Shown: positions 27,441-38,441 of the stretch, in pieces
Layout: the number at the start of each line of letters is the position of its first letter
How positions within the stretch are numbered: position 1 is the stretch's first letter
From: Malaciobacter mytili LMG 24559
GTDB taxonomy: Bacteria; Campylobacterota; Campylobacteria; Campylobacterales; Arcobacteraceae
DNA: 64,000 bases
Assembly (NCBI RefSeq): GCF_003346775.1
Contig: NZ_CP031219.1
Span: 62,001-126,000 of the forward strand
Direction of reading: 5' to 3'
The notes under the pieces: model-generated
The model's database searches: none
What the model saw: only the letters and a program-made list of their open reading frames with translations
What the model was told of the DNA's origin: nothing
Translations under genes and position numbers: made by a program

Positions 27441-30400
27441 CTAATGAGAAATAGAAACTTCAAGAATCTTTTCTTTTTTCTTTAAGGCCAAAATATAAAA
27501 GATAGAAGGAATAATAATAAGTGTTAAAAATGCAGAAGAAATCATCCCTCCAATCATAGGTGCAGCAATTCTTTGCATAACTTCACTTCCTACACCATTT
27601 ATATACATAATAGGTATTAGTCCTCCTAAAATTGCAAATAAAGTCATAAGTTTTGGTCTAAGTCTTAAAACTGCCCCTTTAAAAACAGCATGATAAATAT
27701 GCTCTTTTGTAAACTCTAAACCTTTTTGTTTTAATTCAAACATTGCTTCATGTAAATATACAAGCATTACTATTGAAGTTTCTGCTGCTACACCAAGTAA
27801 AGCTAAAAAACCTACAATAACAGCAATAGAAATATTAAAATTTAAATACTCTAAATAAAATATTCCACCTGTTAAAGCAAAAGGTAGTGTAAAGAAAATA
27901 ATAAAAGTATATGTTACATTTTTTAGAGCAAAATAGATTAAAATAAAAATAATCATCAAAGTAAGAGGAATAATATATGCTAATCTTTGCATAGCTGATT
28001 CTAAATATTCACTTTGTCCTGCCCACTCAAAATAGTAACCAGCAGGAAGTTGAATCTCTTCTAAGGCAGCTTTTGCATTATCTTTATACTCTTTAGCACT
28101 TACTTCACTTTTTGGTGTAATATATATAAAGTTTACATTTAAAGCTTTCTCTGATTTTATAACAGAAGGACCTTCTTCATATTTTAAATCTGCAAATAGT
28201 TTTAAAGGTTGAAATCCTAGTTTTGTTTTTATTTGAAGATTTTCTAAAGCTAAGATATTTTCTCTTTGTGTTGTTTCATATCTTAAACTAATAGGGTATC
28301 TTTCTAATCCTTTATAAAAAGTTGAAACCTCTGCTCCTGATACACCCAAAGCAATAGTATTTAAAATATCATCTTTTGTAATTGAGTATCTTGATAACAT
28401 TTCATCTTTTACATCAATATTTAAATAATATCCTGAGTTTATTTTATCAGAAGAAACAGCCAATGTTTTATCATACTTTTTTAGTTTTTGTTCAATTTTA
28501 AGGGCTAAAGCTTCTAGTGTTTCATGATCATTTCCATATAGTTTTATACCAAGAGGAGTTCTAATACCTGTTAAAAGCATATCTATTCTTCCTCTAATTG
28601 GATAAGTCCAAGAGTTTATAAGCCCAGCAACTCTTAGTTTTTCATCCATTTCTTGCATAAGTTTTTTATATGTCATCCCTTCTCGCCATTGATCTTCACT
28701 TTTTAAAGTAACAATAGTTTCAATCATAGCAAGAGGTGCAGGGTCAGTTGCACTATCTGCTCGTCCAGCTTTTCCAAATACAGTTTGTACTTCAGGAAAT
28801 GATTTTAAAATTTTATCTGTTTTTTGAGTTAATTCTTTTGATAAATCAACCCCTAATCCATAAGGAGTTACAGGCATATACATAAAAGTTTGTTCATTCA
28901 TCATAGGCATAAATTCCCAGTTTTGTTTTTTATAAACGGGAATTGCTAAAATAATTGTTCCTATAAAAATAGCTATTATTAAATATCTAAAATTTAAAGA
29001 TAGTTTTAAAAGAGGAGAATATAGTTTTATAAAGAATTTATTTAAAATATTTTTATCTTCACTTATAATTTTACCTTTAATAAAAAATATCATTAAAATA
29101 GGAACGATAGTAATAGATAAAATAGCACCACTTATCATTGCAAAAGTTTTAGTAAAAGCAAGAGGTGTAAAAAGTCTTCCTTCTTGACCTGTTAGGGCAA
29201 ATATAGGTAAAAATGATACCACAACTAAAATAAGAGCAAAAAAGATAGGACGACCAACTTGCTTTGCAGATTTGATAATAATTTCTACTCTTTGTTTATT
29301 TGAAATATCTTCTTTGCCTTGAAGGTGTTTATGGGCATTTTCAACCATTACAATAGTTGCATCAACCATAGCTCCAATTGCAATAGCAATTCCTCCTAAA
29401 CTCATAATATTTGAACCTAAACCAAAAGCTTTCATTAGTAAAAAAGTTAAAAGTACAGTAATTGGAAGAGTAAGAATTATAATTAGTGCTGACCTTGCAT
29501 GAAATAAAAATAAAGCAGTAACCACCATAACAATAATTGATTCTTCTATTAAAGTAGATTTTAAAGTATCAATAGCCTTATCTATTAATGAAGTTCTATC
29601 ATAAGTTTCAACTATTTCAACTCCTTGAACCTTTAAAGTTTTTAGTTTCTCTTTTACAGCTTTTATTACTTTATATGGATTTTCATCATATCTAACTACT
29701 ACAATTCCTCCAACAGTTTCCCCTTGACCATTTAAATCAGCCATACCTCTTCTTGATGCTGAAGTTACATTTACATTTGCAATATCTTTTATTTTTAGTG
29801 GAATATTATTTTCAGTTTTAATAGTAATATCTTCAATATCTTTTACGCTTTGTAAGTAACCTCTTGCAGTGATTAGGTGCTCATAACCATTTTCTAAAAT
29901 AATTCTTCCACCTTTATCATTATTACTTTTTTCTAAAGCTTTTTTTATCTCTTCAATACTTACATTATATTGAACCATTTTATTTTGGTTTAAAGTAATT
30001 TCATAATTTCTAATAAATCCACCAATAGAAGCTATCTCACTAACACCATCAACTCCTAAAAGTGCAAATTTATAATAATAATCTTGTAGAGTTCTTAATT
30101 CATCTAAACTTTTTGTATCTGATTTTAATGCATACTCATATGCCCAACCAACCCCTGTTGCATCAGGACCAATAGAGATTTTTGCATCTTTTGGAAACTC
30201 ATTTTGTAGTTGTGAAAGTTGTTCTAAAATTCTATTTCTTGAATCATAAAGGTCTGTTCCATCTTTAAAAATAATATAAATTAAAGCATTTGCAAAAGAA
30301 CTCATAGCCCTTACTGTTTCAATATTTGGTAAACTCATTAAGTTTGAGATTAAAGGATATGAAACTTGTTCTTCAATAGTTTTTGGACTTTGTCCTGCCC

Positions 30401-30557
30401 ATTTAACTTGCACAATTACTTGTGGGGGAGATAAATCAGGTAAGGCATCTAAACTTGTATTTTTAACTGCCCAAAAAGAACCAACAGTTAAAATAATAAT
30501 TGAAAAAAGAATTAAAAATTTATTTTTTATACTATATGAGATTATATTTTCAACCAT
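27441..30557 (-). CDS. cusA: CusA/CzcA-family heavy-metal RND efflux pump
   Basis: The 1038-residue inner-membrane proton-driven pump has the RND layout: a membrane helix at the N-terminus, a large periplasmic loop, helices 2-6 with AIGAMVDATIVMVENAHKHL, a second loop and the final helices. The start AVKNTSLDALPDLSPPQVIV is typical of the HME (metal) branch, not the drug branch. Substrate is monovalent (Cu, Ag) or divalent metal; the nearby Met-rich proteins favour copper, by inference. It is the last gene of a same-strand run with the adaptor, outer-membrane channel and YtkA-like genes. Confidence 0.88.
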   Translation of the reverse strand: MVENIISYSIKNKFLILFSIIILTVGSFWAVKNTSLDALPDLSPPQVIVQVKWAGQSPKTIEEQVSYPLISNLMSLPNIETVRAMSSFANALIYIIFKDGTDLYDSRNRILEQLSQLQNEFPKDAKISIGPDATGVGWAYEYALKSDTKSLDELRTLQDYYYKFALLGVDGVSEIASIGGFIRNYEITLNQNKMVQYNVSIEEIKKALEKSNNDKGGRIILENGYEHLITARGYLQSVKDIEDITIKTENNIPLKIKDIANVNVTSASRRGMADLNGQGETVGGIVVVRYDENPYKVIKAVKEKLKTLKVQGVEIVETYDRTSLIDKAIDTLKSTLIEESIIVMVVTALFLFHARSALIIILTLPITVLLTFLLMKAFGLGSNIMSLGGIAIAIGAMVDATIVMVENAHKHLQGKEDISNKQRVEIIIKSAKQVGRPIFFALILVVVSFLPIFALTGQEGRLFTPLAFTKTFAMISGAILSITIVPILMIFFIKGKIISEDKNILNKFFIKLYSPLLKLSLNFRYLIIAIFIGTIILAIPVYKKQNWEFMPMMNEQTFMYMPVTPYGLGVDLSKELTQKTDKILKSFPEVQTVFGKAGRADSATDPAPLAMIETIVTLKSEDQWREGMTYKKLMQEMDEKLRVAGLINSWTYPIRGRIDMLLTGIRTPLGIKLYGNDHETLEALALKIEQKLKKYDKTLAVSSDKINSGYYLNIDVKDEMLSRYSITKDDILNTIALGVSGAEVSTFYKGLERYPISLRYETTQRENILALENLQIKTKLGFQPLKLFADLKYEEGPSVIKSEKALNVNFIYITPKSEVSAKEYKDNAKAALEEIQLPAGYYFEWAGQSEYLESAMQRLAYIIPLTLMIIFILIYFALKNVTYTFIIFFTLPFALTGGIFYLEYLNFNISIAVIVGFLALLGVAAETSIVMLVYLHEAMFELKQKGLEFTKEHIYHAVFKGAVLRLRPKLMTLFAILGGLIPIMYINGVGSEVMQRIAAPMIGGMISSAFLTLIIIPSIFYILALKKKEKILEVSISH

Positions 30558-30566
30558 TTTTTTATC

Positions 30567-31568
30567 CTACCAGTTATCATTGTCTTCATCATAAAGACCA
30601 TTTGTTACAGCATCACTATCAAGTAAGAATAAAGCATTGTCTATTACTTTTTGGTTTTCTTCTAACCCTTCAAGAATTTGATATTTATTTGAAGAGATTC
30701 TTCTTACTTCAACTTCTATTGGCTCAAACTCACTTTTTGAAATACTTTGAAATACATAGTATTTATTTGCTTTATTTAAAACGGCTGTTTTTGGTAGCGT
30801 TAGCATTGAACCATTTACAATTTCTACTTTTACTTTAGCAAACATATTTGGATAGATTTTTTTATCTTTATTCTCTACTACAATTCTAATATCTACTGTT
30901 TTACTTTTCTCATCCACATTTGGGTAAATAAAATCAATTTTTGATTCAATAGGAGAAGTTATCCCATCAAAATATACTTTTACTTTTTGTCCTGTTTTAA
31001 TCTCTTTTAAATCAGCTTCATAAATCTTTGCAATTACCCAAAGTTTATCTATATTTGCAAGTTGTAAAAGAAGATTTCCCTTTTTAGCAAAAGATTTAAA
31101 GTTTATATTTTTTTGTAAAATTATTCCATCTATTGGAGAATAAAAAGTAACCTCTTCAAAATCTTTTTTTAGATTTTTGATTTTTTCTATATCTTTATTA
31201 TTTACTGCTAAAACTTTTAATTTATCAAGACTACTTTTATATAAAGTTTTATCTAAATTCTTAGTGATTTTTAGTTCTTGAGAAATATTATAAATCTCAT
31301 CTGAATAAATAGAAAATAAAGGTTGATTTTTTTTTACATCCATATATAACCTATTGGCATTTAATTTTGTAATATACCCATCAAATCTAGTAACTATATC
31401 TACAACTTTATCTTCGATAATTATGCTATTTGCATAAAACTCTTTTGTAATAGAAATATCTTCTTTTTTTACTTGTGTAATTTTTTTATTAAAAAGTTGT
31501 TGGGCTTCAATAATCTGGGCATTTACTAATGTAAAGCTAACTAATAAGAATGTTAAAAAAAATCTCAT
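30567..31568 (-). CDS. cusB: CusB-type periplasmic adaptor (membrane fusion protein)
   Basis: The 333-residue exported protein has a signal peptide ending LVNA. It has a lipoyl-like half (DIVTRFDGYITKL and FYSPIDGIILQKNINF), a helical hairpin between, and a beta-barrel domain (KTGQKVKVYFDGITSP). It bridges the RND pump and the outer-membrane channel. Its start overlaps the end of the channel gene by 4 bases. At 333 residues it is shorter than E. coli CusB (about 400) and lacks the N-terminal metal-binding extension. Confidence 0.85.
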   Translation of the reverse strand: MRFFLTFLLVSFTLVNAQIIEAQQLFNKKITQVKKEDISITKEFYANSIIIEDKVVDIVTRFDGYITKLNANRLYMDVKKNQPLFSIYSDEIYNISQELKITKNLDKTLYKSSLDKLKVLAVNNKDIEKIKNLKKDFEEVTFYSPIDGIILQKNINFKSFAKKGNLLLQLANIDKLWVIAKIYEADLKEIKTGQKVKVYFDGITSPIESKIDFIYPNVDEKSKTVDIRIVVENKDKKIYPNMFAKVKVEIVNGSMLTLPKTAVLNKANKYYVFQSISKSEFEPIEVEVRRISSNKYQILEGLEENQKVIDNALFLLDSDAVTNGLYDEDNDNW

Positions 31569-32755
31569 TGTATATTTCCTTCATAATATTTTGATTTTGC
31601 TAAAGTTGTAAAAAATTTACTTTTTTCATCTAAGGCATCAATTTGTAGTTTAAGTGTTTTATTAAGATTTTGTATTATTTGTGTACTATTATTTTTAAAT
31701 TTATTATCGATTTTTAAACTTTTATCAATACTATTTTGTAAAGCTAACATCTCTTTTGAAAGTAATTGATAGTTTTCATAGCTTGTATTTAATTCATTTT
31801 GTAAAATTTGTTGTGTTGTAGTAAAGTTTCTTCTTAAACTTTCTAGATCATTTTTTGCTTTTAAATAACTATATTGAGCTTTTTTTACATTTATATTTTC
31901 TCTATTATAAATACTTAAAGGAATAGCAACAGAAACATTTACATAGTCTTGAAACTCAGTTCTATTAAAATAAGTTATATTAAAGTTTATATCTGAAGTT
32001 TTTAAAGCTTTTTCATAAGCTTCTTGTTGTTTAAAAGCCTTTAATTGTTCATTAAATGCTTGAACTTTAGGATGTTTTTCAATATTATTTTCTAAAGAAG
32101 CTTTAAAAACATCAAGATTTATATTTAAATTATCAATTTTTGTATAGGCTATTTCTTCAAGATTTAATTTTAAAGTTGTTATATTTGTTTGTAAATTATT
32201 TAATGTAATATCAAAGTTTTTATTTATTAATTTTGTATCAAATAGTGTTTTTACATCTGTTTTAGAAGTTTGATATAAATAATTTTGTAATTTTTCTAAT
32301 TTTCCTATATTTCTTTTTTGTTCTAATATAAGTCTTTTTTTCTCTTCTAAAATAGCAATATTATATGCAAGTTCATAGATTTTTGCTTTTAAAAGTAGTT
32401 TTTTATCCTCTAAAGATAAAGCTAAGATATTTTTATTAGTAATTTGTATTGATTTATTTATTTCAAGTTTATTTGTTATAGGAATAGCTTGTGTTATTCC
32501 TATAAACTGTGCTTGCATTGCTTCTAAATCTCTTTTATCATAGTTTTCATTTGTATGAATATCATTGATTCCTAAAGATAAAATAGGATTTGAAAGCTTA
32601 GTTGCAAGAGTTATATTCTCATTTGCAATCAGTATTGATTTTTCAATACTTTTAAGTTCATTATTTTTATCTAAAGCATTAGTTACTAAACTTTCAAGAG
32701 AGTTCGCACTTAAATTTAATATTAAAAATGAGATTACAATGAGATACTTTTTCAT
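31565..32755 (-). CDS. cusC: TolC-like outer-membrane efflux channel
   Basis: The 396-residue exported protein has a signal peptide (ILNLSANS) and long helical repeats rich in Asn, Lys and Leu, with the KLSNPILSLGINDI segment characteristic of the CusC/CzcC group of outer-membrane factors. There is no lipobox cysteine. It is translationally overlapped with the adaptor gene downstream and with the YtkA-like gene upstream (TAATG-type junction at 32755), so all act as one tripartite pump unit. Confidence 0.8.
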   Translation of the reverse strand: MKKYLIVISFLILNLSANSLESLVTNALDKNNELKSIEKSILIANENITLATKLSNPILSLGINDIHTNENYDKRDLEAMQAQFIGITQAIPITNKLEINKSIQITNKNILALSLEDKKLLLKAKIYELAYNIAILEEKKRLILEQKRNIGKLEKLQNYLYQTSKTDVKTLFDTKLINKNFDITLNNLQTNITTLKLNLEEIAYTKIDNLNINLDVFKASLENNIEKHPKVQAFNEQLKAFKQQEAYEKALKTSDINFNITYFNRTEFQDYVNVSVAIPLSIYNRENINVKKAQYSYLKAKNDLESLRRNFTTTQQILQNELNTSYENYQLLSKEMLALQNSIDKSLKIDNKFKNNSTQIIQNLNKTLKLQIDALDEKSKFFTTLAKSKYYEGNIQ

Positions 32756-33135
32756 TATAAGTTCACACTTCCTCTTAATTTATGAACTTTGCCATTTTCT
32801 TCTTTAAATTTGATTTGATATTGCCAAGTTCCACCCATAGAAAAGTTAATTAACATTTTATATTTTCCATTAACTAATTTTGCATTTTCTTCAAACTCCA
32901 TATATGGCATCCCTGGCATCTCTGGCATATAAAATTTTGCTTTAACTTTTGCATTTGTAATAGCTTGCCCATCTTTTGCCAATTCTATAAAGAAAATATT
33001 ATCTCCAACAACAAGTGATTTTTCAGATGTTAATTTAACATCAATTCCATCTTTATTACCCGATTGAGAAACAATTTCAGCATTTAAAAATGTGAATACT
33101 AAAGCTAAAATAGAAAATAGTTTTACAAATTTCAT
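32755..33135 (-). CDS. YtkA-like/FixH-like exported Met-rich protein
   Basis: The 126-residue precursor has a signal peptide ending FLNA. The mature domain is a small beta-sandwich like YtkA, with MPEMPGMPYM in the middle, a methionine motif that often binds Cu(I), and a conserved GTWQYQIKF ending. First gene of the efflux operon, it may hand copper to the pump or insert copper into an enzyme; the assignment to copper is inference from the motif and the neighbours. Confidence 0.7.
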   Translation of the reverse strand: MKFVKLFSILALVFTFLNAEIVSQSGNKDGIDVKLTSEKSLVVGDNIFFIELAKDGQAITNAKVKAKFYMPEMPGMPYMEFEENAKLVNGKYKMLINFSMGGTWQYQIKFKEENGKVHKLRGSVNL

Positions 33136-33203: not shown

Positions 33204-34352
33204 TTAAAAGTTAAAAGAAAAGGTAGTTCCTTTATTTAGTTGTGATTCTACATTAACTTTTATATTATATTTAAAGCAAATATTTTGAACAATATTAAGC
33301 CCAATACCAAATCCACCACTTTGAGTGGTTGCTCTATAATATCTATTAAAAATATCTTTTATTTTTTCTTGTGATATACCTATGCCATTATCTTGTATAT
33401 TAAGAGTAAAGTCTTTTAAACTTATATGAATAGTACCTCTTTTTTTATTATATTTTATAGCATTTGATAAGATATTATTAAATAATCTAATAAAGTCATT
33501 TTCCTCTATTTCATAAAAAGTTTCTTCTAATTCATAAGTTATTTGAATTGATTTTTTTTCTGCTAAGGCTTCAAAGTATTTTAGTTGTTCATTTATGATT
33601 TTTTCTAAATTTAATTTTACAATATTTGTTTTTTGAGTATTCTCTTCTAAAAATACATAAGTTAAATCTTTGTAAATCTCAGAGATTTTTAAAGCTGCAA
33701 GTTTAATTCTTTGGATTTGTTTTTTAGTAAGGTCTTCATTTTCAGCAGACATTAAAATAGCACTAATTGGAGTATTTAATTCATGGGTTGTATCTTTTAT
33801 AAAAGTATTTAATTTTTCTCTTTCATCTTTTATTGGTTTTAAAAAAAGTTTTGCAAGAAAAAAACCTATTAGGGAAATAATAAAATAAATTACTAAAAAA
33901 AGTAAAATGATATTTCTTTTTAAATCTTTCATAGCCAAATAAAAAGAGTTGTCTTTTATGGCAATATATGCTACTCCTAGATGGTTATAAGTGGAATTAT
34001 CTAGCAAAATAAAATAAGTATCTTTTTCTATAAGTTTCTTAGAAAAATCTATTTCTTCATTTATATTTCCATAGATTTTTTCTTTTTTTTGATTATATAA
34101 GGAGAAGCTATATTTATCTTCAAATAGCATACCTTTTGTATCTTTTTTTTCTGCATTCATATGAGTTAAAATTATTTTGGAAGAGATTAATGAAGCAAAA
34201 TTTTGAACTTTTGTTTTTGTATAATCAAAATATAATTTTTTTTCATTTTCATAGTAAAGTAGGGCAATAAGTATCATTAAAATAAAAGAACCCCCTAAAT
34301 AAAGACCAAAAAATCTTATAAAAGTTCTTTTTTCACTATTGGTTAAATCTAT
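33204..34352 (-). CDS. sensor histidine kinase of the efflux locus, apparent AUA start
   Basis: A membrane kinase with two transmembrane helices around a periplasmic domain of about 110 residues, phospho-acceptor His in TTHELNTPISA, and HATPase boxes (NAIKYN, DNGIGI, GGFGIGLNIV). The first ATG (34277) lies inside the first membrane helix. In-frame sequence upstream, IDLTNSEKRTFIRFFGLYLG, aligns with the N-terminus of the paralogous kinase at 35150 (IVLTRSEKSALVRFLGLYLG), so the real start is further up. Only ATA (34352) or ATT (34355) are available, behind TAAGGA. It is divergent from the regulator gene at 34501, its probable partner. Confidence 0.8.
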   Translation of the reverse strand: MDLTNSEKRTFIRFFGLYLGGSFILMILIALLYYENEKKLYFDYTKTKVQNFASLISSKIILTHMNAEKKDTKGMLFEDKYSFSLYNQKKEKIYGNINEEIDFSKKLIEKDTYFILLDNSTYNHLGVAYIAIKDNSFYLAMKDLKRNIILLFLVIYFIISLIGFFLAKLFLKPIKDEREKLNTFIKDTTHELNTPISAILMSAENEDLTKKQIQRIKLAALKISEIYKDLTYVFLEENTQKTNIVKLNLEKIINEQLKYFEALAEKKSIQITYELEETFYEIEENDFIRLFNNILSNAIKYNKKRGTIHISLKDFTLNIQDNGIGISQEKIKDIFNRYYRATTQSGGFGIGLNIVQNICFKYNIKVNVESQLNKGTTFSFNF

Positions 34353-34500
34353 AATAAAGAATCCTTACTTAAAATTAATGAAAAAGTATAACATATTAAA
34401 ATTAAATCTTATAAGAAATAAAATTTCCACATAAACTCCATATCAAATAATATATAATTTAAAAATGATATACTAAATAAGCATAAAAAAAAGAGGTAAA

Positions 34501-35160
34501 ATGAGAGTTCTTTTACTTGAAGATGATACTTTATTAAATGAAATTATTGAAGAGTTTTTAGAAGAGTTAGATTATGAAGTAGTCTCAACTCATGATGGGC
34601 AAGAAGCCTTAGAAACTATCTATGAAGATCATTTTGATTTGCTTATTTTAGATGTAAATGTTCCTTCTATAAATGGCTTTGATTTATTAAAAAGCTTAAA
34701 AGACAATAAAATTGATATTCCTACAATTTATATAACTTCTTTACATACTTCAAAAGATATTCAAGAAGGTTTTGAATCAGGTGCTGATGATTATATTAAA
34801 AAGCCATTTCATTTAAGTGAATTAAAACTAAGAATTAATAATATAAAAAGATTAAGACAGATTGATAATAGTGGTCAAGTAAAATTAAATAATGAAATTT
34901 CTTATAATTATGACACAAAATATATAACTGTAGAAAAACAGGAAACTCACCTTTCAAAAACTGAAGCAAAAGTTTTTGAGTATTTAATAAAAAATAAAAA
35001 CAGAGCTGTTTCAATAGAAGAAATATCTTTAAACAATTGGCTTTATGATGAGGCTCCCACAGCTACAACCATAAGAACCTATATAAAAAATCTTCGAAAG
35101 ATTTTAGGAAAAGATAAAATATTAAATTTAAAAGCAGTGGGGTATAAAATTACTCTTTAA
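34501..35160 (+). CDS. OmpR-family response regulator (divergent from the efflux-locus kinase)
   Basis: The 219-residue protein has a receiver domain (LLEDDTLLNE, phosphoacceptor Asp in LLILDVNVPSINGF near residue 51, lysine in YIKKPFHL) and a winged-helix output domain (recognition helix near ATTIRTYIKNLRKIL). An AAAAAAGAGGT site precedes the ATG. The 148 bases to the divergent kinase gene must hold promoters for both. Its tail overlaps, on the opposite strand, the tail of the second kinase by 11 bases. It likely regulates the efflux operon. Confidence 0.85.
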   Translation: MRVLLLEDDTLLNEIIEEFLEELDYEVVSTHDGQEALETIYEDHFDLLILDVNVPSINGFDLLKSLKDNKIDIPTIYITSLHTSKDIQEGFESGADDYIKKPFHLSELKLRINNIKRLRQIDNSGQVKLNNEISYNYDTKYITVEKQETHLSKTEAKVFEYLIKNKNRAVSIEEISLNNWLYDEAPTATTIRTYIKNLRKILGKDKILNLKAVGYKITL

Positions 35161-36304
35161 AAGTTAATATAAAAGTTGTTCCCTCTTTTTCTTTTGAGTC
35201 CACATCTACTTTTATATCATATTCATTGCAAATAGTATATACAATATTTAAACCTATACCAAAGCCACCTTGTACATTGTTGGCTCTATAAAATCTTTTA
35301 AAAATATCTTTTAGATTTTGTTTATTTATCCCAATACCTGTATCTTTTACAATCATTTTATTATCTTTTAAAATTATGTCTATTTCTCCTCCAATTTTAT
35401 TGTATTTAATAGCATTGGAAATTAAATTATTGCATAATCGAATAAAACTCTCTTTATCAATAAAAAAAGTAGTTTGTTTAATATCTGTTTTTATTTCAAC
35501 TCTTTTTTTAGAAGCTAAAGTTTTAAAATACTCTATTTGTTCATTTAAAATCAAATCAATTCTAAGATTTGAAGGAGTTTCTTTTTTCTTTTCTTCTAAA
35601 AATAAATAGATTAAATCTTTATATATTTCAGAAATTCTTTTTGCACTTAGATTAATTCTTTGAATATTTTTTTCACTTAATGATGAACCATTACTTGTAC
35701 ACATTAAAATAGCAGTAATAGGAGTATTTAACTCATGAGTAGTATCTTTTATAAAGTTATTTAGCTTTAATCTTTCATTTGTAATAGGTTTTATAAACAT
35801 TTTTGCAAGATAAAATCCTGTAATAAATAAAAAAGCAAAAATTAGTAAAAAAGAAATAAGTATTTTCTCTTTTAGTTGATATATTTTTTTATAAAAAATA
35901 TTTTCTTTAATAACCACATAATTAACTCCCAAGTGACCAAGTGCAGAGTCATCAATTAAAATAAAACTATTATCATATTGTTTTATTTTTTTTGAAAAAT
36001 CAATTTTTTCAGGAATATTTCCTACAAGTTTTTTATAGCTATGGTCATATAAAGCAAAATCAAATTCAATATTTTCTCTAATTTTTTCAGGACTAATTTT
36101 TTGATTAGTCATTTGAGCATAGATTATAGTTGAAGAGATTTTTGCTGCAACATTTTTCATATTTGAAGTAATTAAATCATAATATAAATTTGATTCAACT
36201 TTATAAAATAGCCATGCAATAATAGTAAGTAAAATAAATGAAGAGCCAAGATATAACCCTAGAAATCTAACTAATGCTGATTTCTCACTTCTTGTTAAAA
36301 CTAT
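35150..36304 (-). CDS. second sensor histidine kinase, paralogue of the 33204 kinase
   Basis: The domain order and motifs copy the 33204 kinase: two membrane helices, TTHELNTPITA phospho-acceptor box, NAIKYN, DTGIGI, GGFGIGLNIV. Three starts are possible. ATG at 36337 has no ribosome site and lies 50 bases inside the regulator gene; TTG at 36310 touches the AAGGAG; ATA at 36304 is 6 bases after AAGGAG and aligns with the ATA of the paralogue. I chose ATA. The gene overlaps the upstream regulator gene by 20 bases, so the pair is co-translated. Confidence 0.78.
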   Translation of the reverse strand: MVLTRSEKSALVRFLGLYLGSSFILLTIIAWLFYKVESNLYYDLITSNMKNVAAKISSTIIYAQMTNQKISPEKIRENIEFDFALYDHSYKKLVGNIPEKIDFSKKIKQYDNSFILIDDSALGHLGVNYVVIKENIFYKKIYQLKEKILISFLLIFAFLFITGFYLAKMFIKPITNERLKLNNFIKDTTHELNTPITAILMCTSNGSSLSEKNIQRINLSAKRISEIYKDLIYLFLEEKKKETPSNLRIDLILNEQIEYFKTLASKKRVEIKTDIKQTTFFIDKESFIRLCNNLISNAIKYNKIGGEIDIILKDNKMIVKDTGIGINKQNLKDIFKRFYRANNVQGGFGIGLNIVYTICNEYDIKVDVDSKEKEGTTFILTFKE

Positions 36305-36944
36305 AACCAACTCCTTTTTTTGTCTGTATATATTCATCTGCTAAGATTTTTCTAAGATTTTTTATATAGGTTCTTAGTGTGGAAGAACTAGGAGTCTCTT
36401 CATATGTCCAAATATTAGAGATAAGCTCTTCATGGCTGATGATTTTATTTGGATGATTTACTAAATATGCAAGTATCTTAGCCTCTTTTTGTGGTAGATG
36501 ATGAATAATTCCATCATTTTTTAAAATTAAGTCTTGAGTATTAAATTCAATATTTTCATCAATTTTAATTATATTTGTATCTATATTAAATAGTTTTTTT
36601 ATATTATCAATTCTAAGTCCAAGTTCTTCTAATTCAAAAGGTTTTTTTATATAATCATTGCATCCAATTTCAAACCCTTTTTTTAAATCATCTATTTGAT
36701 TTAAAGAAGTTATAAAAATAGAAGGAGTAGTAATACCTTCTTGTCTTAATCTTTGTAAAATCTCAAATCCATTTATATTTGGAACATTTACATCTAAAAG
36801 TAATAAATCATAAATATTTGAAAAAAGATTTATTAAGGCATCTTCCCCATCATATGTTGAGGTTACAGTATAATCTTTTGATTCTAAATATTCAGTGATT
36901 ATTTCATTTAAAATAAGGTCATCTTCTAATAATAGTATATTCAT
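36285..36944 (-). CDS. OmpR-family response regulator paired with the 35150 kinase
   Basis: The 219-residue protein has a receiver domain (LLEDDLILNE, phosphoacceptor Asp in LLLLDVNVPNINGF, lysine in YIKKPFEL) and a winged-helix domain (SSTLRTYIKNLRKIL). It is a close paralogue of the regulator at 34501, the same length and with many identical stretches. It starts the operon with the second kinase. The 69 bases upstream contain AT-rich promoter-like sequence before the DUF4377 gene on the same strand. Confidence 0.85.
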   Translation of the reverse strand: MNILLLEDDLILNEIITEYLESKDYTVTSTYDGEDALINLFSNIYDLLLLDVNVPNINGFEILQRLRQEGITTPSIFITSLNQIDDLKKGFEIGCNDYIKKPFELEELGLRIDNIKKLFNIDTNIIKIDENIEFNTQDLILKNDGIIHHLPQKEAKILAYLVNHPNKIISHEELISNIWTYEETPSSSTLRTYIKNLRKILADEYIQTKKGVGYSFNKK

Positions 36945-37013
36945 AATTTATCCTAAAAAAGGCAAGTATATCATATTTATAAAAAAAATTTCTACACAAA
37001 AAATCCACAAAGA

Positions 37014-37334
37014 TTAATTATTTATCGGTTTTTTTTCGATTATTTCAACTAAATTATAAATAATTGAAGAGGCATCAGCTGGAACATTTTCTCTTTTTTC
37101 TTTTTTTACTTTTATAATATATTGGTTTCCTTCTTCAAACTTAAAACCTTTTATATTACTATAAAATAATTGCCATTTATCATCTTTTTGTTTTTTAACT
37201 TTTAAGCATTTCATTGGAGCTACACCAACGCACTTAGCTTTATAGGGAGCTATATATAAAGTAGAAGTATTATAAGAAGATACACATCCTACAAAAAATA
37301 GTATTGTTAAAAAAGATAAAATTAGAGTTTTCAT
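37014..37334 (-). CDS. DUF4377-type lipoprotein
   Basis: The 106-residue precursor has a lipoprotein signal with lipobox FFVGC (cysteine 17), so it is anchored in the membrane facing the periplasm. The mature part has KCVGVAPMKCLKVK, then KGFKFEEGNQYIIKVKKE and PADASSIIYNLVEI, the order of conserved blocks in DUF4377 (often found beside or within HslJ-like heat/stress proteins). Function unknown. The 137 bases between it and the divergent YceI gene carry both promoters. Confidence 0.7.
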   Translation of the reverse strand: MKTLILSFLTILFFVGCVSSYNTSTLYIAPYKAKCVGVAPMKCLKVKKQKDDKWQLFYSNIKGFKFEEGNQYIIKVKKEKRENVPADASSIIYNLVEIIEKKPINN

Positions 37335-37471
37335 ATTATTGCCTATTTGTAAATTAATTTAAAAATTTAAGATTAGTATAACATAATAATAAATAATATT
37401 TCTACACAAAGAGTACACGAAAGTTTATTAAAATTCATAAATAGTAAAAATTACACTTAAAAGGAGAAATA

Positions 37472-38053
37472 ATGATTACTTTAAAAAAAGTAGTAGCTAG
37501 TCTAGTATTTACCGCAGGATTACTAAATGCAACTCCCCATGCAATTGATAATTCTCATACACATGTGGGATTTTCAGTTAAGCATTTGATGATTGCAAAT
37601 GTAAAAGGTGAATTTAAAGACTTTGGTGGGAAAATTGATTTTGATTATAAAACTAAAGAATTTAAAGCCTTAAGTGCAAATATTAAAACTGCTTCAGTTG
37701 ATACAGGTATAGAAAAAAGAGATAACCATTTAAAAAGTGAAGACTTCTTTTTATCTTCAAAATATCCAGAGATGACTTTTGTAATGAAATCTTATATAAA
37801 AGAAGATGATGATGAAGGTAAAATGATAGGAGATTTAACAATTAGAGGTGTTACAAAAGAAGTAACATTGGATGTAGAAATTGGTGGTACAATTAAAGAC
37901 TTCAATGGAAATAATAGAGTTGGTTTTACACTAGAGGGTAAAATCAATAGAATGGATTATGGATTAAAATGGAATAAAGCACTGGAACTTGGTGGGGTTG
38001 CAGTAGATGAAAAAGTAAAAATAATAGTTGAAGTTGAAGCTGTAGAGCTTTAA
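37472..38053 (+). CDS. YceI-family periplasmic lipocalin-like protein
   Basis: The 193-residue exported protein has a signal peptide ending LLNA. The fold is the YceI beta-barrel that binds polyisoprenoid lipids; HTHVGFSVKHLMIANVKGEF, DNHLKSEDFF and LTIRGVTKEVTLDVEI are diagnostic. An AAAAGGAGAAATA site precedes the ATG. The Cys-rich repeat gene follows after 44 bases in the same direction, so the two may be co-transcribed. Confidence 0.88.
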   Translation: MITLKKVVASLVFTAGLLNATPHAIDNSHTHVGFSVKHLMIANVKGEFKDFGGKIDFDYKTKEFKALSANIKTASVDTGIEKRDNHLKSEDFFLSSKYPEMTFVMKSYIKEDDDEGKMIGDLTIRGVTKEVTLDVEIGGTIKDFNGNNRVGFTLEGKINRMDYGLKWNKALELGGVAVDEKVKIIVEVEAVEL

Positions 38054-38097: not shown

Positions 38098-38409
38098 ATG
38101 AAAACATTAAAACTAAAATTAGCTACTTTATTTTTAGGTGCAGCTTTAGCTACAACAGCAGCAGTAGCAGCAAACGCAGGTTCTTGTGGAGCTGGTAAAT
38201 GCGGTGGGGATATGAAAAAAGAGATGAAAGGTTCTTGTGGAGCTGGTAAATGTGGTGGAGATATGAAAAAAGAGATGAAAGGTTCTTGTGGAACTGGTAA
38301 ATGTGGTGGAGATATGAAAAAAGAGATGAAACACGACATGAAAAAAGAGATGAAACAAGATAAAAAAGTTACTGGTTCTTGTGGTGCTGGTAAGTGTGGA
38401 AGTAACTAA
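38098..38409 (+). CDS. secreted Cys-Gly repeat protein, HvfA-like
   Basis: A 103-residue precursor with a clear signal peptide (cleavage near VAANA). The mature part is three 17-residue repeats of GSCG(A/T)GKCGGDMKKEMK, a DMKKEMK spacer, and a final GSCGAGKCG. The CG.GKCG core resembles the EGKCG repeats of HvfA proteins, which recent work describes as precursors of copper-binding modified peptides made by DUF692 and DUF2063 proteins. No such enzyme genes are in the window, so modification is open. Without it, the eight cysteines could bind metal directly. Low-complexity shadows exist on the other strand and are not genes. Confidence 0.75.
   Translation: MKTLKLKLATLFLGAALATTAAVAANAGSCGAGKCGGDMKKEMKGSCGAGKCGGDMKKEMKGSCGTGKCGGDMKKEMKHDMKKEMKQDKKVTGSCGAGKCGSN
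38179..38400 (+). repeat. 51-bp tandem coding repeats (three full copies plus a 27-bp partial)
   Basis: Near-identical units begin at 38179, 38230 and 38281, exactly 51 bp apart; a partial copy of the GSCGAGKCG part starts at 38374. The third unit differs by Ala to Thr. The DNA identity is high enough to permit slippage, so copy number may vary between strains. Confidence 0.9.
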
Positions 38410-38422
38410 TTTTTAGTTTTAG

Positions 38423-38441
38423 CCTCTCTTTTAAAGAGAGG
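38423..38441. terminator. bidirectional terminator hairpin
   Basis: An 8-bp stem (CCTCTCTT with its complement, loop TTA) between the convergent Cys-Gly repeat gene and the MATE gene has T-rich sequence on both flanks. Confidence 0.7.

Follow-up and report, generated by a model that had tools for sequence, protein, structure and literature searches.

The closest described systems are HvfA/oxazolin (Haemophilus influenzae hvfABCX), the captophorins, and the Buf_EGKCG bufferins. The modification of these RiPP metallophores has been reassigned to 5-thiooxazole (PMC12668002, PMC13419390). Full-length HvfA was modified by HvfBC, and the form without signal sequence hardly at all (PMC13419390). The signal peptide thus acts as a leader. 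The characterised MNIO FonB needs a small residue after Cys and tolerates other contexts poorly (PMC12668002). Precursors without an enzyme have been counted by Antoine et al. 2025, with a Buf_EGKCG precursor and no MNIO in 67 of 2583 genomes (PMC12452194, Table 3). These authors suggested modification-free activities, or lost expression or function, and left open whether the unmodified protein works (PMC12452194). The precursor studied here belongs to the same category, precursor without enzyme; the earlier study gave counts only, whereas synteny, leader decay, selection, and operator evidence are added here.

The window is the whole stretch of DNA that was analysed (64,000 nucleotides), and the genome that holds it, G000, has 3.04 Mb on two contigs with 100% completeness. 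The gene under study, called A, has the following parts.

38098-38409, + strand: HvfA-like precursor gene A, 103 aa (translation, NF050137 match), in a genome without the maturation enzymes
38098-38178, + strand: Sec-type signal peptide, 27 aa, with an apparently partly decayed leader motif; cleavage site placed by eye
38179-38331, + strand: three 51-bp (17-residue) repeats, GSCG(A/T)GKCGGDMKKEMK (Tandem Repeats Finder, translation)
38374-38400, + strand: fourth core, GSCGAGKCG, after the linker HDMKKEMKQDKKVT (translation, alignment with relatives)

The signal peptide, translated as MKTLKLKLATLFLGAALATTAAVAANA, showed Sec-type features, namely a basic start, a hydrophobic core, and AxA ahead of the first repeat (sequence, alignment with relatives). 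Tandem Repeats Finder gave a 51-bp unit with 3.0 copies and 97% matches at 38178-38331, which translated to GSCGAGKCGGDMKKEMK twice and GSCGTGKCGGDMKKEMK once. A short Met-Lys linker preceded the fourth core, and the terminus was GSCGAGKCGSN. The signal peptide, three 17-residue units, and fourth GSCGAGKCG of the preliminary description were confirmed in this way. Read directly, the fourth core differed from the other units by synonymous changes only, except at one Ala/Thr site, which argues for selection on the peptide.

The NF050137 model (NCBIfam KCGExKCG_twice, HvfA family) matched A with 38.7 bits (5.7e-10), above its cut-off of 19.5, and sister species carry this gene next to hvfBC, so that the likeness to HvfA precursors noticed earlier was well founded. 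A shared with HvfA, captophorins, and bufferins the Sec signal peptide, repeated KCG cores, and 17-residue period, and in sister species the gene headed an A-HvfB-HvfC cluster. It differed from them in that its genome had no HvfB or HvfC, its core was GSCG(A/T)GKCG and not EGKCG, and its signal peptide had partly departed from the leader consensus. The HvfA equivalog NF050188 was not reached, with 13.2 bits against a cut-off of 95, the cores being AGKCG/TGKCG. An AGKCG core and a sub-cut-off NF050188 score were also found in an enzyme-bearing relative. A contig scan gave one relative only, an Arcobacter sp. MAG (69% match), which together with gene content suggests that the organism belongs to the Arcobacteraceae (Campylobacterota). 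No solved structure matched A, a terminator scan gave nothing above threshold, and an NPDC1 Pfam match of A (0.0064, below cut-off) was rejected as compositional.

Bacterial metallothioneins (SmtA/BmtA, MymT) and periplasmic copper-binding proteins are small and Cys-rich. A was also small and Cys-rich and probably binds metal by free thiolates, and some orphan relatives carried CxC-type clusters in addition. Unlike metallothioneins, A is predicted to be exported and had CGxGKCG repeats, and no metallothionein family in Pfam matched A or its Cys-richer orphan relatives.

MNIO (DUF692, HvfB, PF05114) and HvfC (DUF2063, PF09836) were searched for in both contigs of G000, and neither was found. 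The Pfam DUF2063 model was weak on HvfC of the family, giving only 22.1 bits, below cut-off, with the sister-species HvfC; therefore, profiles were built from 12 HvfB and 12 HvfC sequences of the family. These profiles had no match in G000, and in the enzyme-bearing G079, the positive control, they matched at 1e-160 and 6e-100. An HvfC overlooked through the weak Pfam model was ruled out, as the family profile also found none. In 17 other orphan genomes the family profiles gave only two partial HvfC-profile matches (G032/G033, E 0.03-0.04), which were taken as chance. YcaO, considered as another enzyme that could modify Cys, was absent from G000 in a genome-wide search; orphans of genus g2 had one YcaO each, in long open frames, assumed to be the housekeeping form. 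The preliminary description had reported no DUF692 or DUF2063 within 38 kb and proposed a genome search for them. That search has now been run, and the absence holds for the whole genome. A remote MNIO modifying A was ruled out, as the genome has none. Of the two options first given, modification by distant enzymes is contradicted by the whole-genome searches, and a bare metallothionein-like protein is the better one, with the addition, not visible at that stage, of descent from an enzyme-modified precursor or a sister relation to one.

Among 104 genomes of the family, a homologue of A occurred in 54 and an MNIO in 37. Gene order was read from the loci. In 36 genomes HvfB came next after A, mostly at a distance of 9-30 bp, with HvfC nearly always present too, and in 19 A stood without them. 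One of the 37 MNIO genomes, G034, had a partial 50-bit PF05114 match (positions 109-216) away from A, at L155 (G034:C8:266692-267027); the HvfB family profile did not find it, and the genome was otherwise without MNIO. The usual gene order was response regulator, kinase, YtkA/FixH, CusC, CusB, CusA, YceI, A, HvfB, HvfC, convergent MatE, Hom, and others. In orphan loci of genera g1, g2, and g3, MatE lay 22-52 bp after A.

Three states of this locus were observed inside the window's genus: YceI-A-HvfB-HvfC in G078/G079, YceI-A-MatE in G000, and YceI-MatE in G080-082, where A, B, and C were all gone. In two sister species the locus was the same (YceI-A-...-MatE), with hvfB and hvfC starting 9-13 bp after A, at the place of the following junction.

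38410-38441: junction of A and convergent MatE, 32 bp; occupied in the sister species by hvfB-hvfC and further genes

The tail (K/Q)DKKVTGSCG(A/S)GKCGS was common to A of G000 and of G078/G079 (alignment), which indicates one orthologous gene.

The GSCGAGKCGG core was present in both partnered and orphan A (alignment), and the core was thereby ruled out as a marker of modified against unmodified protein. The earlier argument from the GSCG prefix and the spacer, by which A would differ from modified precursors, does not stand, as relatives adjoining hvfBC have the GSCGAGKCGG core. The part distinguishing partnered from orphan precursors is the signal peptide and not the core. Partnered precursors of many genera had the signal peptide K(I/L/M)KLAGxxLGAAL(T/S), in which KLAGxxLGAAL was almost invariant, and such a near-frozen signal peptide is expected of a RiPP leader. 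In the leader region, A of the window read KLKLATLFLGAALATTA, against KLKLAG(A/M)MLGAALT(T/S)TT in the enzyme-bearing sisters. It kept LGAAL, had lost KLAG, and scored 27.1 with a leader weight matrix, against 45.0 and 50.9 in the sisters, so its leader appears only partly decayed.

All 36 partnered precursors of the family contained the leader motif [LIMV]G[ASTV][ASTV][LIV]; among the 19 orphans, A of the window was the only one to have it. Outside the family, 12 of 14 partnered precursors had it, against 2 of 18 orphans (Fisher 3.7e-5); the motif was defined on family data, and the outside sequences, scored by eye, were not used for its definition. Other signal-peptide-like ORFs of the loci had it in 2 of 45 cases. 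On the family tree five independent lineage pairs were available, of which four (five with a longer motif) went the expected way and none the opposite way, giving a phylogenetically corrected p of 0.06-0.125 inside the family. Divided by the divergence of housekeeping neighbours, signal-peptide divergence came to 1.2-1.3 in partnered clades; for the orphan clades g2 and g3 the ratio was about 3.3. YceI, next to A, has an ordinary signal peptide, and there the ratio was 2.7-4.8 in all clades. By these ratios, partnered signal peptides are under unusual constraint, and orphan ones are like any signal peptide.

The weight matrix was trained on four other genera. Background signal peptides scored −23.5 on average (sd 5.6, highest −1.8). 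Orphans of g2 mostly scored 13-28, with two copies at 1.7 and −2.8, and held-out partnered precursors of distant genera scored 8-39. Because partnered and orphan scores overlap at large distances, the score is most informative within g2 and the window's own genus. Most g1 and g2 orphans had a recognisable leader remnant, which favours enzyme loss and descent from leader-bearing precursors. Orphans of g3, G085, G072, and copy b of G035 scored near background, and in these the leader may never have been present. From the side of evolution, the comparison independently supports a second role for the Sec signal peptide in these RiPPs, that of leader peptide, with KLAGxxLGAAL as candidate leader residues.

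More than one copy of A was seen in G035 and G020. In G035 one form was accompanied by hvfBC and had a leader-type signal peptide; the other stood at the YceI-MatE locus, where hvfBC is missing, and its signal peptide was of the ordinary kind (L099 and L100). G020 (L095:8509-8826, - strand) had two tandem orphan copies, one with the lipobox-like signal LFSLTGC, which suggests a lipoprotein form.

Upstream of A, the window contained the following features.

37472-38053, + strand: YceI-family periplasmic protein, 44 bp upstream of A (family match, locus comparison)
37403-37418, + strand: putative operator TACACA-N5-TACAC, an 11-bp direct repeat, 69 bp upstream of YceI (pattern, locus comparison)
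36993-37008, + strand: degenerate second operator copy with one mismatch, ahead of the divergent response regulator gene
36285-36944, - strand: OmpR-family response regulator
35150-36337, - strand: sensor histidine kinase
34501-35160, + strand: second OmpR-family response regulator
33204-34277, - strand: second sensor histidine kinase
32755-33135, - strand: YtkA/FixH-like protein of the cus-type operon
31565-32755, - strand: outer membrane efflux protein, CusC-like
30567-31568, - strand: membrane fusion protein, CusB-like
27441-30557, - strand: CusA/CzcA-family heavy-metal RND pump (TIGR00914, 1007 bits)

The metal efflux genes noticed nearby in the preliminary description are this CusCBA-type system at 27441-33135, and two-component regulators lie between the pump and A. 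The two OmpR-family two-component systems stand back to back at 33204-36944 and separate the cus operon from YceI-A, whereas in genus g2 the cus operon ended with A. A DUF4377 protein gene at 37014-37334, between the response regulator and YceI, was present in the window's species only. Sister species had a compact divergent promoter at this place; in the window, the degenerate operator copy (36993-37008) remains on the regulator side.

YceI and A are probably on one transcript. All six species of the window's genus had a TTCTACACAAA-type sequence with TACACA-N5-TACAC upstream of YceI(-A). Across 1.85 Mb of fetched loci the pattern occurred 37 times, and 31 of these sites were on the same strand as A, YceI, or the FixH-cus operon and no more than 150 bp upstream, against about 0.3 expected, the genomes being related and not independent. 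The 31 sites came from 30 genome loci in several families of the phylum. They preceded orphan A operons (G000, G032, G033; A genes in G111, G138, G401) as well as partnered ones. An exact copy was not found at most g2 loci or at the window's own FixH-cus promoter. An 11-bp direct repeat adjoining OmpR-family regulator genes suggests a response-regulator operator, and TACACA-N5-TACAC is a candidate operator of the neighbouring OmpR-family regulator. By the shared operator-like site and the two-component genes next door, YceI-A would fit a Cus-type copper-response regulon.

We consider it probable that A is an HvfA/captophorin-type precursor that has lost its enzymes and is kept as an unmodified, putatively copper-binding periplasmic protein. 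The maturation enzymes HvfB (MNIO) and HvfC would have been lost from the genome and the precursor gene kept. A would be produced together with YceI, under the same operator type as the CusCBA copper pump. The protein would be exported by Sec and shed its signal peptide. In the periplasm, unmodified A with its four Cys pairs (CGxGKC) would bind Cu(I) as thiolates. A lacks the enzyme features that define the HvfA RiPP family and belongs to it by descent; by its likely working, it resembles an exported metallothionein.

We infer that the enzymes were lost in G000 and not gained in the sisters, which on the local species tree needs several losses. The opposite course is unlikely, namely that a plain secreted Cys-Gly repeat protein was ancestral in Campylobacterota, hvfBC was inserted behind it, and the signal peptide was then frozen as a leader. 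Enzyme-less forms with ordinary signal peptides do dominate in a different family of the phylum, as well as in genus g3 and in copy b of G035, and in the window's genus the tree alone is undecided between one gain and one loss. The genus had a weakly supported position in the species tree and was placed differently in the HvfBC tree, and the A-only label required at least five changes on the species tree. Against a gain, almost all genera had hvfBC at the same place after A, and the tree of HvfBC broadly agreed with the species tree, tracking species groups without settling every step; both are expected of an inherited block. The leader remnants in most orphans of the window's genus and g2, and the orthologous A common to G000 and its enzyme-bearing sisters, also speak against it.

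A might still be modified by an enzyme of another family, which we regard as very unlikely. The Cys cores were intact in G000, and the searches covered named enzyme families only. However, G000 had no MNIO, HvfC, or YcaO, and no conserved candidate gene took the place of hvfBC beside orphan A, where the next gene was MatE. Cys contexts also bear on this point. Partnered precursors had a residue other than Gly/Ala after 2 of their 288 Cys, and orphan precursors after 16 of 173 (per protein p = 0.02), the latter concentrated in G004, G020, G002, G006, and G072. Such enzyme-disfavoured contexts, together with leader decay, fit the absence of any leader-dependent enzyme. A of the window had no unusual Cys context and no added CxC cluster.

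The mature repeats of the orphans are under purifying selection. Between orphan species dN/dS of the mature part, computed on short repetitive sequences, was mostly about 0.1 (0.09-0.19), no higher than among partnered species; two orphan pairs were near 0.4 (G021/G022, G032/G034). That A is a decaying relic without function is the least probable reading, since, although three congeners have lost A, B, and C altogether and the system is thus dispensable there, the low mature dN/dS makes a relic unlikely, the frame was open in all 19 orphan genomes with 5-12 Cys retained, the A-only state was common to 13 g2 species, and a conserved operator-like site stood ahead of the window's gene.

With enzyme loss as the preferred reading for A, a wider proposal has about an even chance of being correct: in Campylobacterota, captophorin precursors would repeatedly have shed their MNIO and become plain secreted metallothionein-like proteins, the signal peptide freed from its leader role, the Cys repeats under selection, and Cys clusters added in some lineages. 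In a sample of the phylum, 21 of 39 NF050137-positive genomes were without PF05114, so Campylobacterota look like a centre of enzyme-less precursors. If the proposal is true, a RiPP class readily reverts to plain protein. Even where a genome has no MNIO, NF050137 would give A and similar proteins the name 'oxazolone/thioamide-modified RiPP metallophore'. Close relatives that share this gene and its locus, some having the enzymes and some lacking them, are a natural experiment, which bears on the benefit of the costly MNIO modification and on whether unmodified precursors do anything.

Added CxC-type Cys clusters were found in several orphans, namely G004, G020, and f7 genomes such as G215, G259, G375, and G414; the new cluster of G215 reads KGCKCKDCNHPNCAAKLDPTKACDC. 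These additions may represent a metallothionein-like direction. In orphan relatives of another family, a shared Cys cluster of the type GC(K/N)CK..(D/E)CxxxxCAAKxDPxKACDC, which had no Pfam match, was fused to the GKCG core at the following loci.

L180:6316-6651: fused Cys cluster
L182:7899-8321: fused Cys cluster
L181:6413-6718: fused Cys cluster
L172:4453-4710: fused Cys cluster
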